NCBI RefSeq assembly: GCF_003443735.1
Contig: NZ_CP031969.1
Span: forward strand, 310,001 to 374,000
Length of the DNA stretch: 64,000 nucleotides
Source: Streptomyces sp. CC0208
GTDB taxonomy: Bacteria > Actinomycetota > Actinomycetes > Streptomycetales > Streptomycetaceae
Direction: 5' to 3'
This document shows positions 1-12,644 of the stretch, piece by piece (position 1 is the stretch's first letter; each line of letters begins with the position of its first letter). The position numbers and the translations under genes are program-made. The notes beneath the pieces are model-generated. The model had not been told where the DNA came from and ran no database searches. It saw only the letters and a list, made by a program, of their open reading frames with translations.

Positions 1-2
1 GC

Positions 3-128
3 AAGCCGGGGCGGGGCGTGGTGACCAGCCGGATCACGGTACGCAACCAGCGGGACGCGGACGTCCTCGTCTACACGCCGGTGCGGCTGATCCGCGGTAG
101 GGACTACGAGGCTCCGGCGCCGTCCTGA
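3..128 (+). CDS. MaoC-like acyl dehydratase, C-terminal fragment
   Basis: Only the last 41 codons lie in the window; the gene begins upstream of position 1. The visible peptide includes VTVRNQ-like (ITVRNQRDADVLVYT) followed by a basic end, which resembles the C-terminal strand of MaoC/R-hydratase hot-dog proteins. These hydrate 2-enoyl-CoA esters, and a role beside the acyl-CoA dehydrogenases and hydratases downstream would fit. The GH1-like gene converges on it with a 13-base gap. The family call rests on a short C-terminus and is tentative. Confidence 0.5.
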   Translation, partial: KPGRGVVTSRITVRNQRDADVLVYTPVRLIRGRDYEAPAPS

Positions 129-141
129 GCCCGGGGCCGGG

Positions 142-1548
142 CTACGAGGTCGCGCCGTCCTGAGTCCGAGGCGAGGCCGGCACCAGACTCAGACCGGTGG
201 GCCGCCCCGCTTCGGGTACGGCGGCGCCGGCGAAGGCGCCGTGGTGCAGCCAGTCGGAGGGGATCGAGGGACGCGGCGGGGCCTCGTGGTCCGGGACCGC
301 CATCGCGTACAGGCGGGTGTAGCGGAACTTGGCCTCCAGGTTGTCCAGGACCGACCAGTACTCGTAGCCGCACACCCGCACACCGGCCGCGGTGAGTCCG
401 GCCAGCCAGGAGAGCCGGGCGCGCAGCAGGGCCCGGCGCCGGTCGTCGTCGCTGTGTCCTGTGGCGTCGACGAGGTCCAGGTCGCCCATGCCGTTGTCGA
501 TGACGGACAGCGGCGGCAGCATGTCGCCGTAGAGCTCGTAGAGGCCGGCGACGGCGTCGGCGAGTCCTTCGGGGATGATCGGCCAGCCGTAGGCGGTGGT
601 CTCCACGTCGTCGAACGGAACGATCGCGAAGCCCAGACCCACGAGCAGGCGGTTCACCTCGTTGAGGGCGCTCTGGCAGGTACTCGTCGGCAGCACGCGG
701 GGCAGGTTCTCCGGCGCGGTGACGCGGAACGGGGTGTGCCAGGACAGGCCCAGCAGGTCCTGCTCGGTGGTGATGGCGTCCAGGTCGCCGGGGCGCACGC
801 AGCCGGTGTCCTCGACCGGTGAGTCGCCGTCCTCGGTCACCATGTGCGCGCCGAGCAGCAGGGGGTCGAGGAAGAGTCGGTTGGTCCAGCTCTCCAGGCG
901 TTCCAGGGCGAGCCGGTCGTAGGGGTCGTCGGTGGCCGGGTAGCCGCCCACGAGGGTGACCGTGGTGCCGATCCGGCCTCGCGCGCCGGTGGCTCTCAGG
1001 GCCTGGGTGGCGAGCCCGTTCGCGAGCAGGATGTGGTGGACCGCGGGCAGTCCGGCACGGCCGGCGCCCCGGCTCGGGGGATACATTCCGGCCACGTGGT
1101 CCGCGAGCGTGGGGCCGGCGAGGTCGGTGGAGGTGATCCAGCGTTCCACCCGGTCGCCGAACCGGCGGCCCAGCTCGGCGGCGTAGGCGGCGAAGTGCTC
1201 GGCGGTGTCGCGGGCGAGCCAGCCGCCGGCGGCGTCCAGCCACGGCGGCAGTGAGCGGTCGAGCAGGGTGAGGGCGGGGCGGCTGCCGTGCGCGAGCAGT
1301 GCGTCGAGCGCGCGGTCACAGCGGTCCAGGGTGTCCCGGTCCCAGCTGCCGGGGCCGTCGGGCTGGAGCTGCGGCCATCCGGCGACCATGCGATGGGTGT
1401 CCGCGACGACACCGGTCAGCTGCTTGAGGTCGTCGGTCCACTGCCGGAAGTGCCCGCCGCGTTCCGGCCGGGGCGCCGCGATGGTGTCCGCCGTGGCGAC
1501 CCCCCAGTCGACACAGCGAAGGGATTCATGCAGGAAACCATCGCTCAT
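142..1548 (-). CDS. GH1 (beta-glucosidase fold) protein with both catalytic Glu replaced
   Basis: A 468-residue protein of normal family 1 glycoside hydrolase length. The N-terminal DWGVATADT (res. 14-22) matches the family WG.AT.A strand, and EYWSVLDNLEAKFRYTRLYA near the C-terminus matches the usual SLLDNFEW...G strand. Where GH1 enzymes carry T-F-N-E-P (acid/base Glu) this protein has TSTDL (139-143), so Glu becomes Asp142. Where the nucleophile motif is I/V-T-E-N-G it has VIDNG (349-353), so Glu becomes Asp351. Ordinary retaining beta-glucosidase activity is therefore doubtful; a binding protein, altered enzyme or pseudoenzyme is possible. It is transcribed alone from a promoter next to a weak regulon-type site. 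Fold confidence is high, function unknown. Confidence 0.75.
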   Translation of the reverse strand: MSDGFLHESLRCVDWGVATADTIAAPRPERGGHFRQWTDDLKQLTGVVADTHRMVAGWPQLQPDGPGSWDRDTLDRCDRALDALLAHGSRPALTLLDRSLPPWLDAAGGWLARDTAEHFAAYAAELGRRFGDRVERWITSTDLAGPTLADHVAGMYPPSRGAGRAGLPAVHHILLANGLATQALRATGARGRIGTTVTLVGGYPATDDPYDRLALERLESWTNRLFLDPLLLGAHMVTEDGDSPVEDTGCVRPGDLDAITTEQDLLGLSWHTPFRVTAPENLPRVLPTSTCQSALNEVNRLLVGLGFAIVPFDDVETTAYGWPIIPEGLADAVAGLYELYGDMLPPLSVIDNGMGDLDLVDATGHSDDDRRRALLRARLSWLAGLTAAGVRVCGYEYWSVLDNLEAKFRYTRLYAMAVPDHEAPPRPSIPSDWLHHGAFAGAAVPEAGRPTGLSLVPASPRTQDGATS

Positions 1549-1577
1549 GGTTACCGTCCAGGCGGTGAATGGTTTAG

Positions 1578-1634
1578 CGCATTCAACTGAATGTCCGCCG
1601 ACCGGACGCTAACAGGTCAAACAAACTACGACAA
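1578..1634 (-). promoter_or_regulatory. Promoter and candidate operator for the GH1-like gene
   Basis: Read leftward, a -35 box TTGTCG (1629-1634) and a -10 box TAGCGT (1606-1611) are separated by exactly 17 bases. The segment overlapping the -10, GCTAACAGGTCAAAC on the plus strand, resembles elements at other promoters of the cluster. Nearer the gene, ATTCA-AC-TGAAT (1581-1592) is a perfect inverted repeat, and GCATTCAACT (1579-1588) recurs exactly at 2685-2694. Match to the best regulon consensus is weak here. Confidence 0.5.
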
Positions 1635-1737
1635 TGTTTCGGCCAGATCTCGCGGTACGAGGTCAAGCCCTCTCCGGGCCGAGCTCGGCCGTTCTCCGGC
1701 GGGCGTCGACGGGGACGCCCGATGCGGTCGAACGTCG

Positions 1738-2631
1738 TCAGCCCTGGCCCTGCGATGCCGGTGCCTGCTCCTCCAAGGGGCGGAAGTCCTCCTCCTGCCA
1801 CCAGGGATACAGGGGTGGCATGTCCTTGCTGACCCGGCCCGGGAACGCGGGTGGCCTTTTGGCGAGAAACGACTGAACGCCCTCCACGGGGTCCGGGCCG
1901 CCGCCGATCTGGCTCATGATCCGGGAGTCGAGCCGGTGGGCGGCCATCGGGTGGGGCTCCCCCAGCATCCGCCACATCATCTGGCGGGACAGGGCGACGG
2001 AGACCGCGGAGGTGTTCTCCGCGATCTCCCGGGCGAGTGCGTACGCCGCCGGTAGCAGTTCCTCCGGCGGATGCACGGAGCGGACCAGCCCGGCCGCGAG
2101 TGCCTCGTCCGGGCCGAAGACGCGGCCCGTGGCCACCCATTCCATGGCCCGCTGCATGCCGACGGCCCGGGGCAGGAACCAGCTCGCCGCCGATTCCGGC
2201 ACGATGCCGCGACGGGCGAAGACGAAGCCGAACTTCGCCGAGGTCGACGCCAGGCGGATGTCCATGGGCAGGGTCATGCTGGCCCCGACGCCCGCGGCCG
2301 GGCCGTTGATCGCCGCGATGACCGGTTTGGTGCTGGAGAAGATCCGCAGGGCGACCCGGCCGCCGGTGTCCCGGTGCCAGGCGCCCGCCTTGCGGTGGTC
2401 GAAGGAGGAGCCGCCGGCGCTGACGTCGGCGCCCGCGCAGAAGCCGCGCCCGGCGCCGGTCACCACGATCACGCGTATGTCGTCGTCGGCGTCGGCCACG
2501 TCCAGGACGTCGAGCAGATCGGCCATCATCCGGGGATTGAAGGCGTTGAGTTTCTCGGGCCGGTCGAGGGTGACGGTGAGGATCCGGTCCGCCACCTCGG
2601 CCCGTACGGTCTCGTACTCCTGCACCGGCAT
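1738..2631 (-). CDS. Enoyl-CoA hydratase/isomerase (crotonase family)
   Basis: A 297-residue crotonase-fold protein. The two oxyanion-hole segments are present as GFCAGADV and NGPAAGVGAS, and VPESAASWFLPR carries a glutamate at the usual second catalytic position. The first family glutamate is not obvious, as in many isomerase-like or specialised members. It has a C-terminal tail longer than the ~260-residue norm, ending in a Pro/Gln/Glu-rich stretch. It is transcribed leftward from the site at 2672-2700, back to back with a second hydratase gene. Expected to hydrate or isomerise an enoyl-CoA intermediate; substrate unknown. Confidence 0.85.
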   Translation of the reverse strand: MPVQEYETVRAEVADRILTVTLDRPEKLNAFNPRMMADLLDVLDVADADDDIRVIVVTGAGRGFCAGADVSAGGSSFDHRKAGAWHRDTGGRVALRIFSSTKPVIAAINGPAAGVGASMTLPMDIRLASTSAKFGFVFARRGIVPESAASWFLPRAVGMQRAMEWVATGRVFGPDEALAAGLVRSVHPPEELLPAAYALAREIAENTSAVSVALSRQMMWRMLGEPHPMAAHRLDSRIMSQIGGGPDPVEGVQSFLAKRPPAFPGRVSKDMPPLYPWWQEEDFRPLEEQAPASQGQG

Positions 2632-2671: not shown

Positions 2672-2699
2672 TTAATTAGTTATAGCATTCAACTCTACT
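2672..2699. promoter_or_regulatory. Candidate regulon operator between divergent hydratase genes
   Basis: AT-rich element in an 88-base divergent gap. TTAATTAGTTAT (2672-2683) is the reverse complement of ATAACTAATTAA, a full match to the motif WTAACTNATTNA also found at 6561, 12626 and elsewhere. CAACTCTACT (2690-2699) is repeated exactly at 6549-6558 next to the GntR gene. Both hydratase genes could be controlled from here. The binding protein is not known. Confidence 0.6.
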
Positions 2700-2719: not shown

Positions 2720-3517
2720 ATGGCGGTGGAGATGACGGACCTCTTGGTGACGGCCGTCGGGCCGGTCCGGCTGATCGAGCTGAACCGGCCGGACCAGCTC
2801 AACGCGATGAGCGAGGAGCTGCACGCGGGTCTCGCGTCGCTGTGGGACTCGCTCGCCGACGACCCGGAGGCCCGGGTGGTCGTGCTCACCGGGCGCGGCA
2901 GGGCGTTCAGCGCCGGGGGCAACTTCGACATCATGACCCGGGTCCAGCGCGACCGCGCCTTCCGGGAGCAGAACGTCGACGAGGCGCGGCGGATCATCAC
3001 CGGCATGGTCCGTTGCCCGCTGCCGGTGATCGCGGCCGTCAACGGGCCCGCGGTGGGGCTCGGATGCAGCCTGGCGTTGCTGAGTGACCTGGTCCTGATG
3101 GCCGACGACGCCTATGTGGCCGACCCGCACGTCCAGATCGCGCTCGTCGCGGGTGACGGCGGTGCGCTCGTCCTTCCCCTGCTCGTCGGACTGACCCGCG
3201 CGAAGGAACTGCTGTTCCTCGGCGACCGGGTGAGCGCCGAGGAGGCCGTCCGGCTGGGCATCGCCAACCGCACCGTGCCCAGGGACAAGCTCCTGGACGA
3301 GGCCATGGATCTCGCCGGGCGGCTGGCCGCCCTGCCCGCGCAGGCGCTGCGCGAGACCAAGCGCGCGGTGAACCTGCACCTGGAGCAGGCGCTCACCACC
3401 GTGCTGGAACCCGCCCTGCTCGCCGAGCAGGAGACCATGCACTCGCAAGACCACATCGCCGTCGTCGAGAAGATCATCGCGTCCCGCGCCCGTCGCCGGA
3501 CCGCCGGGGAGGGCTGA
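2720..3517 (+). CDS. Enoyl-CoA hydratase/isomerase (crotonase family)
   Basis: A 265-residue crotonase protein with oxyanion segments AFSAGGNF and NGPAVGLGCS. Around the catalytic region it reads ADPHVQIALVAGDGG, a pattern I associate with actinobacterial EchA proteins, with Asp where canonical hydratases have the second Glu. It probably acts on an unusual enoyl-CoA. The chosen ATG lacks a clear ribosome site; an ATG 12 bases on is an alternative but its GGAG abuts it. It is first in a three-gene unit (hydratase, acyl-CoA dehydrogenase, luciferase-like oxidoreductase); the next gene starts three bases after its stop. Confidence 0.85.
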   Translation: MAVEMTDLLVTAVGPVRLIELNRPDQLNAMSEELHAGLASLWDSLADDPEARVVVLTGRGRAFSAGGNFDIMTRVQRDRAFREQNVDEARRIITGMVRCPLPVIAAVNGPAVGLGCSLALLSDLVLMADDAYVADPHVQIALVAGDGGALVLPLLVGLTRAKELLFLGDRVSAEEAVRLGIANRTVPRDKLLDEAMDLAGRLAALPAQALRETKRAVNLHLEQALTTVLEPALLAEQETMHSQDHIAVVEKIIASRARRRTAGEG

Positions 3518-3520
3518 GGC

Positions 3521-4678
3521 ATGGACTTCGCGTTCAGCGAGGAGCAGGAGGAACTGGGGCGCACCGTACGGGCGTTCCTGGCCCACACCTCGCCCGAGAC
3601 CGAGACGCGGCGCCTGATGGAAACGCCCGAGGGCTTCGACCGGGCGCTGTGGCGCCGGATGGGGACGGAGCTCGGGCTGCAGGGTCTGGCGGTCCCTGAG
3701 GAGTACGGCGGTGCCGGGTGCGGGCCGGTCGAAGTGGGCGTGGTGATGGGGGAGATGGGCCGCGCGCTGCTGTGTGCGCCGTTCCTGTCCTCGGCCGTGC
3801 TGGCGACGACCACGCTGCTGCGCTGCGCCGACGAGGAGGCCCGCAAGCGCCTGTTGCCGAGCCTGGCCTGCGGTGAACTGGTCGGGACACTCGCCCTGAC
3901 CGAGGACTCCGCCCGCTGGGACGCGGCCGGGGTCCGGCTCACCGCACGGGAGAGCAACGGGAGTTGGCTGCTGACCGGGCACAAGACGTTCGTCCTGGAC
4001 GGTGCCACCGCCGATGTCGTCCTCACCGTCGCCCGCATCGAGAACGCCACCGACGACGGCATCGGGGTGTTCTGCGTGGAGGGCGACGCGCCCGGCCTGA
4101 CCCGTGCGCCGCTGCCCACGATGGACCCGACCCGCCGCCAGGCCCGCCTCGACTACCAGGACGTACCGGCGACCCGGCTGCGGACGCACGGCGACGGATG
4201 GGACCTGGTCTCGGAGGTGCTCGACCGGGCCGCGGTGGCGCTGGCTGCCGAGCAGGTCGGGGTGGCTTCCCGCGCGCTCGACATGGCGGTGGAGTACGCC
4301 AAGGTGCGCCACCAGTTCGGGCGGCCCATCGGTTCCTTCCAAGCCGTGAAACATCTGCTCGCCGACGTCCTTCTGGAGGTGGAGTCGGCGCGCGCCGCCG
4401 CCCACTACGCCCTGCTCGCCGCGGAGAACTCGGAGAGCGCCGACCCGGAGCTGCCCGCCGTGGCGAGTCTGGCGAAGGCGTTCTGTTCCGACGCGTGTGT
4501 ACGGGCGACGGAGGAGAACATCCAGGTGCACGGCGGCATCGGCTTCACTTGGGAGCACCCGGCCCACCTCTATCTGAAGCGGGCCAAGACGTCACAGCTG
4601 CTGTTCGGCGATCCGGCGTACCACCGGGAGCTGCTCGCACGGAGAATCGGCATGGACAAGGACAAGGGAGCGGCATGA
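3521..4678 (+). CDS. Acyl-CoA dehydrogenase (small-subunit, FadE28-like type)
   Basis: A 385-residue FAD-dependent acyl-CoA dehydrogenase that would introduce an alpha,beta double bond and pass electrons to ETF. It begins MDFAFSEEQEELGRTVR and has the conserved RHQFGRPIGSFQAVKH segment. Its C-terminus reads QVHGGIGFTWEHPAHLYLKR rather than the YEGTSE(I/V)Q of homotetrameric enzymes. That ending is typical of subunits such as mycobacterial FadE28 that work in alpha2beta2 heteromers. It is a close relative of the gene at 18105, but has no FadE29-type partner beside it. Its stop overlaps the next start as ATGA. Confidence 0.85.
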   Translation: MDFAFSEEQEELGRTVRAFLAHTSPETETRRLMETPEGFDRALWRRMGTELGLQGLAVPEEYGGAGCGPVEVGVVMGEMGRALLCAPFLSSAVLATTTLLRCADEEARKRLLPSLACGELVGTLALTEDSARWDAAGVRLTARESNGSWLLTGHKTFVLDGATADVVLTVARIENATDDGIGVFCVEGDAPGLTRAPLPTMDPTRRQARLDYQDVPATRLRTHGDGWDLVSEVLDRAAVALAAEQVGVASRALDMAVEYAKVRHQFGRPIGSFQAVKHLLADVLLEVESARAAAHYALLAAENSESADPELPAVASLAKAFCSDACVRATEENIQVHGGIGFTWEHPAHLYLKRAKTSQLLFGDPAYHRELLARRIGMDKDKGAA

Positions 4679-5703: not shown

Positions 5704-6489
5704 TCAGCCGAGCAGGTCCAGGACGGTGGTCATGGACCTGTTCTGCAGCAGGTAGTCCTCGGCCTCCTGGAGATGGAGACGCCACAGTTCCTCGGCGGCC
5801 TCGGTCCGGCGCGCGGCGACCAGGTCGACGAGCGCGCCGTGGGCACGGAAGCCCCGTCGGTTGGCCCGTACGTTCTCGGGGCTGCCTGCGTCCAGGTCGA
5901 CGTGGGACCAGTTCGCCTGGTCGATGATGTGCCGGACCATGCCGTTGAGGACGCTCAGCGTCTCGTTGCCCGCCAGTTCGACGACCAGGGCGTGGAACTC
6001 CATGTGGGCACGGATGAAGGCCGAGGGGTCGTCCATCAGTGTCTCGGCTTCGGCGACGGCGGCCCGCAGCCGCTCCAGGTCCCCGTCCGTGCGTCCCTCG
6101 GCCAGCAGTCCGGCGCACGGTGCCTCGATGACCGTACGGGCGTCGTAGACGTCCTTGAGGGTCGTGCCCCCGTATTCGAGGACCACGCCGGCATACCGGG
6201 CCGCGACCGTGCCTTCCGGGGTCTGCACCCGTGCCCCGCCCCGGGCGCCCCGGCGCACGCTGATCAGCGACTCCGACTCCAGTACCCGGAACGCCTCACG
6301 CAGCGTCGGCCGGGACACGGCGAACTCCGCCATCAGCGCCGACTCGGCCGGCAGCGCCTCGCCCTCGGCCAGTTCCCCACGCACGATCTTGCGGCGCAGC
6401 TGGGCCGCCACCAGTTCCGCCATCTTGGGCACACGGACCTTCACGCCGTTCACCCGGCCACCGCCCTGCCGCCCCGTCGTACTCGTCAC
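5704..6489 (-). CDS. GntR-family regulator with FCD domain (FadR subfamily)
   Basis: A 261-residue regulator. The winged helix-turn-helix spans about residues 22-90, with LPAESALMAEFAVSRPTLRE as recognition region, followed by an all-helical FCD ligand domain (RAHMEFHALV and HGALVDLVAA hold the usual metal/ligand histidines). FadR-type proteins usually sense acyl-CoAs or organic acids. I chose the GTG at 6489 because GGAGG lies seven bases upstream; a GTG at 6525 lacks a ribosome site. It is the only regulator inside the catabolic island and sits under a strong copy of the island-wide motif, so it is the leading candidate for regulon control and autoregulation. Confidence 0.85.
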   Translation of the reverse strand: MTSTTGRQGGGRVNGVKVRVPKMAELVAAQLRRKIVRGELAEGEALPAESALMAEFAVSRPTLREAFRVLESESLISVRRGARGGARVQTPEGTVAARYAGVVLEYGGTTLKDVYDARTVIEAPCAGLLAEGRTDGDLERLRAAVAEAETLMDDPSAFIRAHMEFHALVVELAGNETLSVLNGMVRHIIDQANWSHVDLDAGSPENVRANRRGFRAHGALVDLVAARRTEAAEELWRLHLQEAEDYLLQNRSMTTVLDLLG

Positions 6490-6548
6490 CGGCCCGCCTC
6501 CGTCCGACCCAGGGGTGCGGGACACAGCCCGAGCACCGGGTAGACGGC

Positions 6549-6595
6549 CAACTCTACTAGATAACTGATTAAACTAGGTTACCGAGTTCCGACAA
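6549..6595 (-). promoter_or_regulatory. Promoter/operator of the GntR gene
   Basis: Contains ATAACTGATTAA (6561-6572), a full match to WTAACTNATTNA, plus CAACTCTACT (6549-6558) shared with the 2690 site. Read toward the GntR gene, TTGTCG (6590-6595) and TAATCA (6566-6571) form -35 and -10 boxes 18 bases apart, so the motif covers the -10. The octamer CGACAATG at the -35 is also present at the -35 of the GH1 promoter. Arrangement suits autorepression. Confidence 0.6.
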
Positions 6596-12615: not shown

Positions 12616-12644
12616 CTTATTTAGCTGAAGTAGTTATACGATAG
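12616..12644. promoter_or_regulatory. Candidate operator in the divergent promoter at 12.6 kb
   Basis: TGAAGTAGTTAT (12626-12637) is the reverse complement of ATAACTACTTCA, one mismatch from WTAACTNATTNA. TAGTTATACGA (12631-12641) matches exactly the TNGTNNNACNA pattern described for FadR-subfamily GntR proteins. TTATTTAGCTGAA on the left resembles an arm of the 11387 palindrome. One site could serve the leftward dehydrogenase and the rightward SDR operon. Confidence 0.55.

Follow-up and report, generated by a model that had tools for sequence, protein, structure and literature searches.

A Streptomyces GH1-fold protein with both catalytic glutamates replaced is linked to an acyl-CoA catabolic island

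The closest described relatives of the protein reported here are the GH1 beta-glucosidases, exemplified by Cba3 of Cellulomonas biazotea (8znv) and a Streptomyces sp. enzyme (1gnx), with which it has sequence family and barrel fold in common but from which it differs in that both catalytic glutamates are replaced, the Q-I-E-G segment is missing and residues of the NEP, NYY and FEW motifs are changed. For an active GH1 enzyme, the Spodoptera beta-glycosidase Sf-beta-gly, one study gives the fraction of kcat/Km left by single mutations as 0.00044 for E187D, 0.00012 for Q39A and 0.0000008 for R97A, with W452A being inactive (PMC5148593). E187D, Q39A and W452A alter the same positions as are altered in the Streptomyces protein, although the Spodoptera changes were engineered singly whereas those described below are combined and fixed across species. 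A second point of comparison is Klotho, an animal GH1-like pseudoenzyme whose glycosidase-like domains, according to a review, lack a key catalytic Glu and have a presumed binding role (PMC8204227). The Streptomyces protein likewise has a GH1 fold without the catalytic Glu residues and may, by analogy, bind a partner or a glycan; Klotho, however, is membrane-anchored and extracellular with two repeats, whilst the Streptomyces protein is a single bacterial domain encoded in a catabolic island, and the likeness considered here is one of way of working. Among the best-matching entries of the open-access literature we found no bacterial GH1 pseudoenzyme fixed across species.

The gene encoding this GH1-fold protein lies at positions 142–1548, on the minus strand, of the window analysed here, a 64,000-nucleotide stretch of the Streptomyces sp. 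CC0208 genome. It specifies 468 amino acids, with Asp142 and Asp351 at the catalytic places, and is defined by its open reading frame, a match to PF00232, 26 orthologues and purifying selection. An earlier note on this DNA had given the span exactly but left the strand unstated; on the plus strand the same interval contains internal stops and the frame is not open. PF00232 (Glyco_hydro_1) matches at 181.8 bits against a cut-off of 22.6, with residues 33–417 covering profile positions 56–425 of 453, and the NCBIfam GH1 beta-glucosidase model reaches 211.8 bits, well below its cut-off of 478.5. The best 60 of 193 matching solved structures are nearly all beta-glucosidases, beta-glycosidases or other GH1-type glycosidases; five Shiga-toxin B-subunit models, matching at E 0.026–0.24, were set aside as chance matches. 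Four further GH1 genes are present in the same genome (443–529 bits), all with N-E-P and E-N-G.

AlphaFold2 gave no usable model from 26 close rows (pLDDT 42.4). A second model, built from 18 rows of the family together with a single ordinary GH1 row and a fragment of a GH1 protein from viral contigs, reached pLDDT 60.7 and pTM 0.68 with eight barrel strands, and the added ordinary GH1 row may bias it toward the GH1 fold. Several stretches, including 272–325 and 407–468, have pLDDT below 50 and we therefore drew no pocket geometry from it. Foldseek matched the model to 8znv with E 3.9e-21 and TM-scores of 0.56 and 0.60, and VIA-align returned Z 30.4 and rmsd 3.4 over 326 residues for 8znv and Z 29.5 for 1gnx, so that the structure prediction proposed in the earlier note, at this pLDDT, groups the protein with GH1 beta-glucosidases. 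By a PF00232 score above the curated cut-off and by its (beta/alpha)8 fold the protein belongs to GH1 in sequence and fold, and the GH1 fold originally claimed for it is thus borne out by profile match and predicted-structure comparison alike. The accompanying statement that fold signature and length were intact stands for the fold and not for the rest: the stretch from WG.AT to the first barrel helix (beta-1/alpha-1, which carries Gln39) spans 12–20 residues in the family rows measured compared with 37–39 in five ordinary GH1 rows, and Q-I-E-G is gone.

Orthologues were found at 26 loci in the genome collection, all of them Streptomyces. The family was detected in 20 of 392 sampled Streptomyces genomes and in four of 394 sampled genomes of the class, the latter again all Streptomyces, whilst three of 396 genomes matched in the phylum sample, one match being the window's own gene and two being ordinary GH1 proteins; these two (L049 and L050), near-threshold matches with N-E-P, were rejected as relatives and excluded from the counts. 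Four candidates were scored per genome in the Streptomyces, class and phylum searches, and a scan of viral contigs found no relative. Within the sampled genomes the family is therefore restricted to Streptomyces. Two of the 20 Streptomyces matches are divergent (L039 and L040, at 53–54% identity), and a copy of the L040 form with 99.4% identity to it is found on a plasmid of Streptomyces sp. NBC_00564 (L051). In a phylogeny the family forms a single clade with 100/100 support and a long stem. The plasmid, which is linear, holds a second acyl-CoA island (L051:11195-31195) with two GntR regulators near the GH1-fold gene and a third further off, and 20 kb of it show 98.8% DNA identity to L040. 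Two alignments were used below: A1, of 26 rows, comprises the window's gene plus 25 orthologous loci, L024 being omitted because its start is unclear (it is still included in the counts of catalytic Asp), and A2, of 11 rows, comprises nine island rows and the two divergent relatives L039 and L040.

MAFFT placed TSTD142L opposite TLNEP and VID351NG opposite ITENG, and hhalign agreed (E 2.2e-63), confirming the earlier observation of Asp at both catalytic places. The Asp142 codon (1123–1125, minus strand) aligns with the NEP Glu at the acid/base place and the Asp351 codon (496–498, minus strand) with the ENG Glu at the nucleophile place. In the second model Asp142 falls just past beta-4 and Asp351 on beta-7, the GH1 catalytic places; Arg53 falls on beta-2, and Glu396 and Trp398 on beta-8. 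Neither the acid/base Glu in N-E-P nor the nucleophile Glu in T-E-N-G by which a GH1 enzyme is recognised is present: both Asp142 and Asp351 occur in 26 of 26 Streptomyces orthologues, and the nucleophile place is Asp in all 11 rows of A2. The corresponding motifs read TVSD and TDHG in L039 and TTPS and TDSG in L040, with Asp at the acid/base place of the former and Ser at that of L040 and L051. As judged from the alignments, Asp351 is general in the family, whilst its three lineages differ at the acid/base place, two having Asp and one having Ser. Collecting homologues thus upheld the Asp/Asp pair across the orthologues, though not across the wider family with its Ser-bearing members, and a search for Glu at the true catalytic positions found none in the 26 orthologues or the two divergent relatives. 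Since Asp142 and Asp351 are present throughout the orthologues, the substitution is not limited to one strain and does not represent decay of one strain.

The rest of the active site was compared at 26 positions mapped via alignment motifs, in the numbering of the Spodoptera enzyme (PMC5148593); one of the 26, located on beta-8 two residues ahead of Trp444, was added by us, and a few others adjoin residues named in that paper. Besides the loss of Q-I-E-G, the window protein has substitutions at the Asn of NEP, at both the Asn and the second Tyr of NYY and at the final Trp of FEW. Within A2, N186 has become T, S or P and N329 has become S or L in all 11 rows, the Y331 position is His in nine rows and Tyr in two, and the W452 position has Ala throughout the nine island rows but Trp in both divergent rows, whilst H142 is retained in five rows and E451 in eight. 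Arg97 (Arg53 here), Trp444 (Trp398) and Asp448 (Asp402) are retained in all 11 rows, and His271 is found in nine, the remaining two having Tyr. The glycone-binding set described for that enzyme (Q39, H142, N186, W444, E451 and W452; PMC5148593) is not preserved, four of the six residues being lost in the window protein. Taken with the effects of the Spodoptera mutations, these losses make ordinary retaining hydrolysis very unlikely.

We also looked at the protein as a weak or specialised glycosidase, in which the Asp/Asp pair would carry out retaining hydrolysis of an unusual glycoside, and consider this improbable. Each of the two replacements retains a carboxylate, Asp351 does not vary, the GH1-site residues Arg53 and Trp398 are retained, and weak sugar-like labels occur nearby, albeit below cut-off: the best model for the SDR of the island described below is glucose 1-dehydrogenase (199.5 bits, cut-off 215) and that for the island GntR is NanR (116 bits, cut-off 260). 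On the other hand, Ser occupies the acid/base place in L040 and L051, the equivalents of Q39, N186 and N329 are lost across A2 and those of Y331 and W452 in the window protein, and E187D alone brings an active GH1 enzyme down to 0.00044 of its kcat/Km (PMC5148593). Nor did Pfam find another glycosidase or a sugar kinase in the 30 frames, neighbouring or related, that were scanned; the families in these frames were acyl-CoA, redox, hydrolase and regulator families, and five frames, some of which may be wrong frames, gave no Pfam family.

The gene is under purifying selection, with dN/dS values of 0.218–0.383 between the window gene and 25 orthologues, and internal stops are present in none of the 26 orthologues fetched. 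Among the 11 proteins of the island that were compared, its product ranks last in median identity (81.4%, the others lying at 84.4–93.4%), which, together with the lost pocket constraint, is what could be said for a decaying beta-glucosidase relic carried along with the island. Such decay is already contradicted by the dN/dS values and the intact frames, by the use of GAC (23) and GAT (three) alone at codon 142 in the 26 rows of A1, by occurrence in exactly those 18 of the 392 genomes that have the island and by a conserved promoter, and we regard it as the least probable of all readings; decay confined to one strain is ruled out by the 26/26 Asp/Asp count, the dN/dS values and the 18/392 co-occurrence. 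As regards the pocket, a canonical six-row set had 65% of pocket positions invariant vs a background of 29%, and none of 10,000 draws was as high. The same positions were 27% invariant vs 37% background in A2 (p 0.91) and, in A1 with its 26 rows, 58% vs 54% (p 0.42). Among the three lineages of the family nine of 26 pocket positions were invariant (p 0.81), and in number-matched canonical triples (20 of 20, from six ordinary GH1 proteins) 18–23 of 26 were invariant, with p at most 0.0022. By these alignments the GH1 pocket is not conserved above background in the family. The suggestion that the protein might bind a glycosylated substrate is therefore unsupported as far as the old pocket is concerned, because four of the six glycone residues are lost and the pocket is not preferentially conserved.

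The gene order around the GH1-fold gene is constant at 26 of 26 loci: acyl-CoA dehydrogenase, two enoyl-CoA hydratases, the GH1-fold gene, MaoC, enoyl-CoA hydratase and acyl-CoA dehydrogenase. In the window, Pfam identified an enoyl-CoA hydratase (ECH_1; 1738–2631, minus strand) that lies upstream of the GH1-fold gene and serves as island marker, an enoyl-CoA hydratase family protein (2720–3517, plus strand) and an acyl-CoA dehydrogenase (3521–4678, plus strand), the last two present at 26/26 loci, and a GntR/FCD regulator (5704–6525, minus strand) that is a candidate regulator of the island and is present at 24 of the 26 loci compared, being not found at L016 and L022. Convergent with the GH1-fold gene is the C-terminal end of a MaoC-like dehydratase (1–128, plus strand), which starts outside the window and was identified by Pfam on L032:13625-14128. 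A GMC oxidoreductase (L026:6285-7886) stands between the enoyl-CoA hydratase and the GH1-fold gene in 11 of the 26 loci and is absent from the window. Among solved structures the best relative of this oxidoreductase is a chloramphenicol-inactivating one, and a reading of it as a C-glycoside oxidase was dropped as unsupported.

Membership of a catabolic island, which the earlier note had called a fatty-acid-type regulon, is upheld by linkage of the six nearest acyl-CoA genes at all 26 loci and by 18/18 co-occurrence: the island enoyl-CoA hydratase (E 1e-110) was found in 18 of 392 genomes, exactly the 18 with the island-type GH1-fold protein, and the two genomes with divergent forms are outside these hydratase carriers. 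Common descent may explain why these 18 genomes have the island, and their agreement therefore does not amount to 18 independent events. The locus is better named an acyl-CoA catabolic island. An SDR belongs to the island in 25 of 26 loci, the stretch of L007 ending at 13.8 kb, about where the SDR starts elsewhere, and was found in six of 177 sampled genomes, all six carrying the GH1-fold gene. Another SDR, some 9 kb from the divergent gene of L039, shares 71.8% identity with it over 248 residues. Near that divergent gene (L039:2661-5955) we also noted a PEP mutase, a phosphonopyruvate decarboxylase and a 2-aminoethylphosphonate aminotransferase, the first and third just below their cut-offs, which makes a phosphonate gene cluster possible there. 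In L040 and L051 the GH1-fold gene is divergent to a GntR/FCD regulator 52% identical to that of the island and lies amid other acyl-CoA genes.

It is possible, though we lean against it, that the old barrel houses a new enzyme, which would act on an island intermediate by another reaction (such as that of a lyase, isomerase or hydratase) and use Asp351, Glu396, Arg53 and His271 as working residues. Asp351, Arg53, Glu396, Trp398 and Asp402 are invariant in 11/11 rows of A2 and His271 is kept in 9/11. Glu396 (codon 361–363, minus strand) is a family-invariant residue of beta-8 (strand 392–399 in the model) where six canonical rows have F or Y, and is one of a group of family-invariant residues absent from canonical rows that includes R76, C77, D150, W221, H235, Q263, W270, D351 and W381; of the new invariant residues, W270 and E396 sit on predicted barrel strands and Q263 adjoins one. 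The protein is, moreover, found among enzymes in three contexts (the island, the second acyl-CoA island and the phosphonate-type genes with the 71.8% identical SDR), and the sampled genomes with the SDR all carry it. Weighing against a new enzyme, the active-site positions as a set lack preferential conservation, the acid/base position is Asp or Ser according to lineage, and the GH1-fold gene has its own conserved promoter and, judged from gene order, is not in one operon with the SDR, with read-through from the hydratase being possible. In a more specific and slightly less probable form of this proposal, the GH1 barrel would have been rebuilt as a non-glycosidic acyl-CoA enzyme centred on Asp351, Arg53, His271 and Glu396, working with the co-inherited SDR, also in a different neighbourhood.

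The GH1-fold gene is preceded by a conserved promoter block of about 105 bases (1546–1650, minus strand), recognised in the orthologue alignment, with a core common to the plasmid relative. A sigma-70-like -35 (TTGTCG) and -10 (TAGCGT), 17 bases apart (1606–1634, minus strand; identified by eye), are exact at 23 of 26 loci, the exceptions being L002, L014 and L016, and the TTGT/TGTTAGCGTC pattern has one genome match. The palindrome CATTCA-N2-TGAATG (1580–1593), with a third half-site at 1566–1571, is a candidate operator; it is exact at 25 of 26 loci (not L017), has a single site in the genome searched, that of the window, and occurs in the enoyl-CoA hydratase promoters of 0/26 loci. CCGAAACATTGTCG, allowing up to one mismatch, also has a single genome site, at the promoter of the GH1-fold gene. 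As the palindrome and CCGAAACATTGTCG are each unique in the genome, neither ties the gene to other island promoters. In the plasmid relative the sequence of the core promoter is retained, with a different inverted repeat downstream. A structured RNA leader was considered but found no support: Rfam gave no match up to E 1, and the z-scores for folding were -1.0 and -1.5.

When this promoter was compared with the remainder of the window, 24 words of 10–13 bases proved common to both, among them the 10-mer AGTTGAATGC, which is present in the promoter of the GH1-fold gene at 23/26 loci and in the divergent promoter between the two enoyl-CoA hydratases (ECH/ECH), itself conserved and 1.1 kb away, at 22/26. 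AGTTGAATGC forms the first ten bases of a 15-mer, AGTTGAATGCNNTAA, located at 1574–1588 (minus strand) with a second copy, from the promoter alignment, in the ECH/ECH promoter at 2680–2694 (minus strand). The 15-mer is exact in the former promoter at 12 of 26 loci and in the latter at 22 of 26; these two promoters account for both of its perfect matches in the 9.32 Mb genome, and at up to two mismatches it has nine genome matches vs five for a reversed control. Another word of the ECH/ECH promoter, TATAACTAATTAAGC, was not found at the promoter of the GH1-fold gene with up to three mismatches. In the window it lies at 2670–2684, with two further matches at up to three mismatches (6560–6574 and 12624–12638; 0 in 100 shuffles), of which one precedes the GntR gene; this makes TATAACTAATTAAGC a candidate operator of the island regulator. 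What had been termed an island-type promoter is thus partly upheld, by AGTTGAATGC in both promoters, and partly not, given the absence of the palindrome from the hydratase promoters and of TATAACTAATTAAGC from that of the GH1-fold gene. A putative link of the island GntR to the promoter of the GH1-fold gene draws on the common AGTTGAATGC and on a GntR gene adjacent to the GH1-fold gene in L051; against it, the GntR was not found at 2/26 loci, nor TATAACTAATTAAGC at that promoter. From the shared AGTTGAATGC it is plausible that the GH1-fold and enoyl-CoA hydratase promoters are co-regulated.

We favour the reading, to which we give a probability of roughly 0.5, that the protein is a non-hydrolytic pseudo-glycosidase that serves acyl-CoA catabolism in a binding or accessory capacity. 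In its favour, the catalytic Glu residues are replaced in the 26 orthologues and both divergent relatives, pocket constraint is lost whilst dN/dS stays at 0.218–0.383, island-type protein and island hydratase occur in the very same 18 of 392 genomes, the family is one clade, and the genome also retains its four ordinary GH1 genes. Klotho, which lost a catalytic Glu and probably binds, may be added as a precedent by analogy (PMC8204227). Against it, a pocket at background conservation lends no specific support to binding in the old pocket, the invariant Asp351, Arg53, Trp398 and Asp402 and the new Glu396 would be needed by a new active site as well, the lowest median identity in the island also fits relaxed constraint, and the promoter link with ECH/ECH is modest. 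The odds of the four readings were unaffected by a recount of promoter words because they are based on protein and linkage. Under the pseudo-glycosidase reading, a GH1 (beta/alpha)8 barrel would have stopped hydrolysing glycosides and been recruited as an accessory, binding-type protein of the island. It would be made upon island induction and is probably cytosolic, no signal peptide being seen by eye, and it may act by binding a compound of the pathway or a protein partner, as regulator, carrier or scaffold, and not by GH1 chemistry. The barrel floor, which keeps Arg53, Asp351, Trp398 and Asp402 and gains Glu396, may then serve barrel stability or the holding of a ligand.

A relative of the protein in an annotated record is labelled 'family 1 glycosylhydrolase', and a sugar function is therefore assigned by automatic annotation where the protein belongs to acyl-CoA catabolism. 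Klotho shows that a glycosidase-like domain can take the pseudoenzyme course (PMC8204227). With its three diverged lineages, the fixed context of the main lineage and a conserved promoter, the Streptomyces family would offer a testbed for how a glycosidase barrel is stripped of its chemistry and what it acquires.
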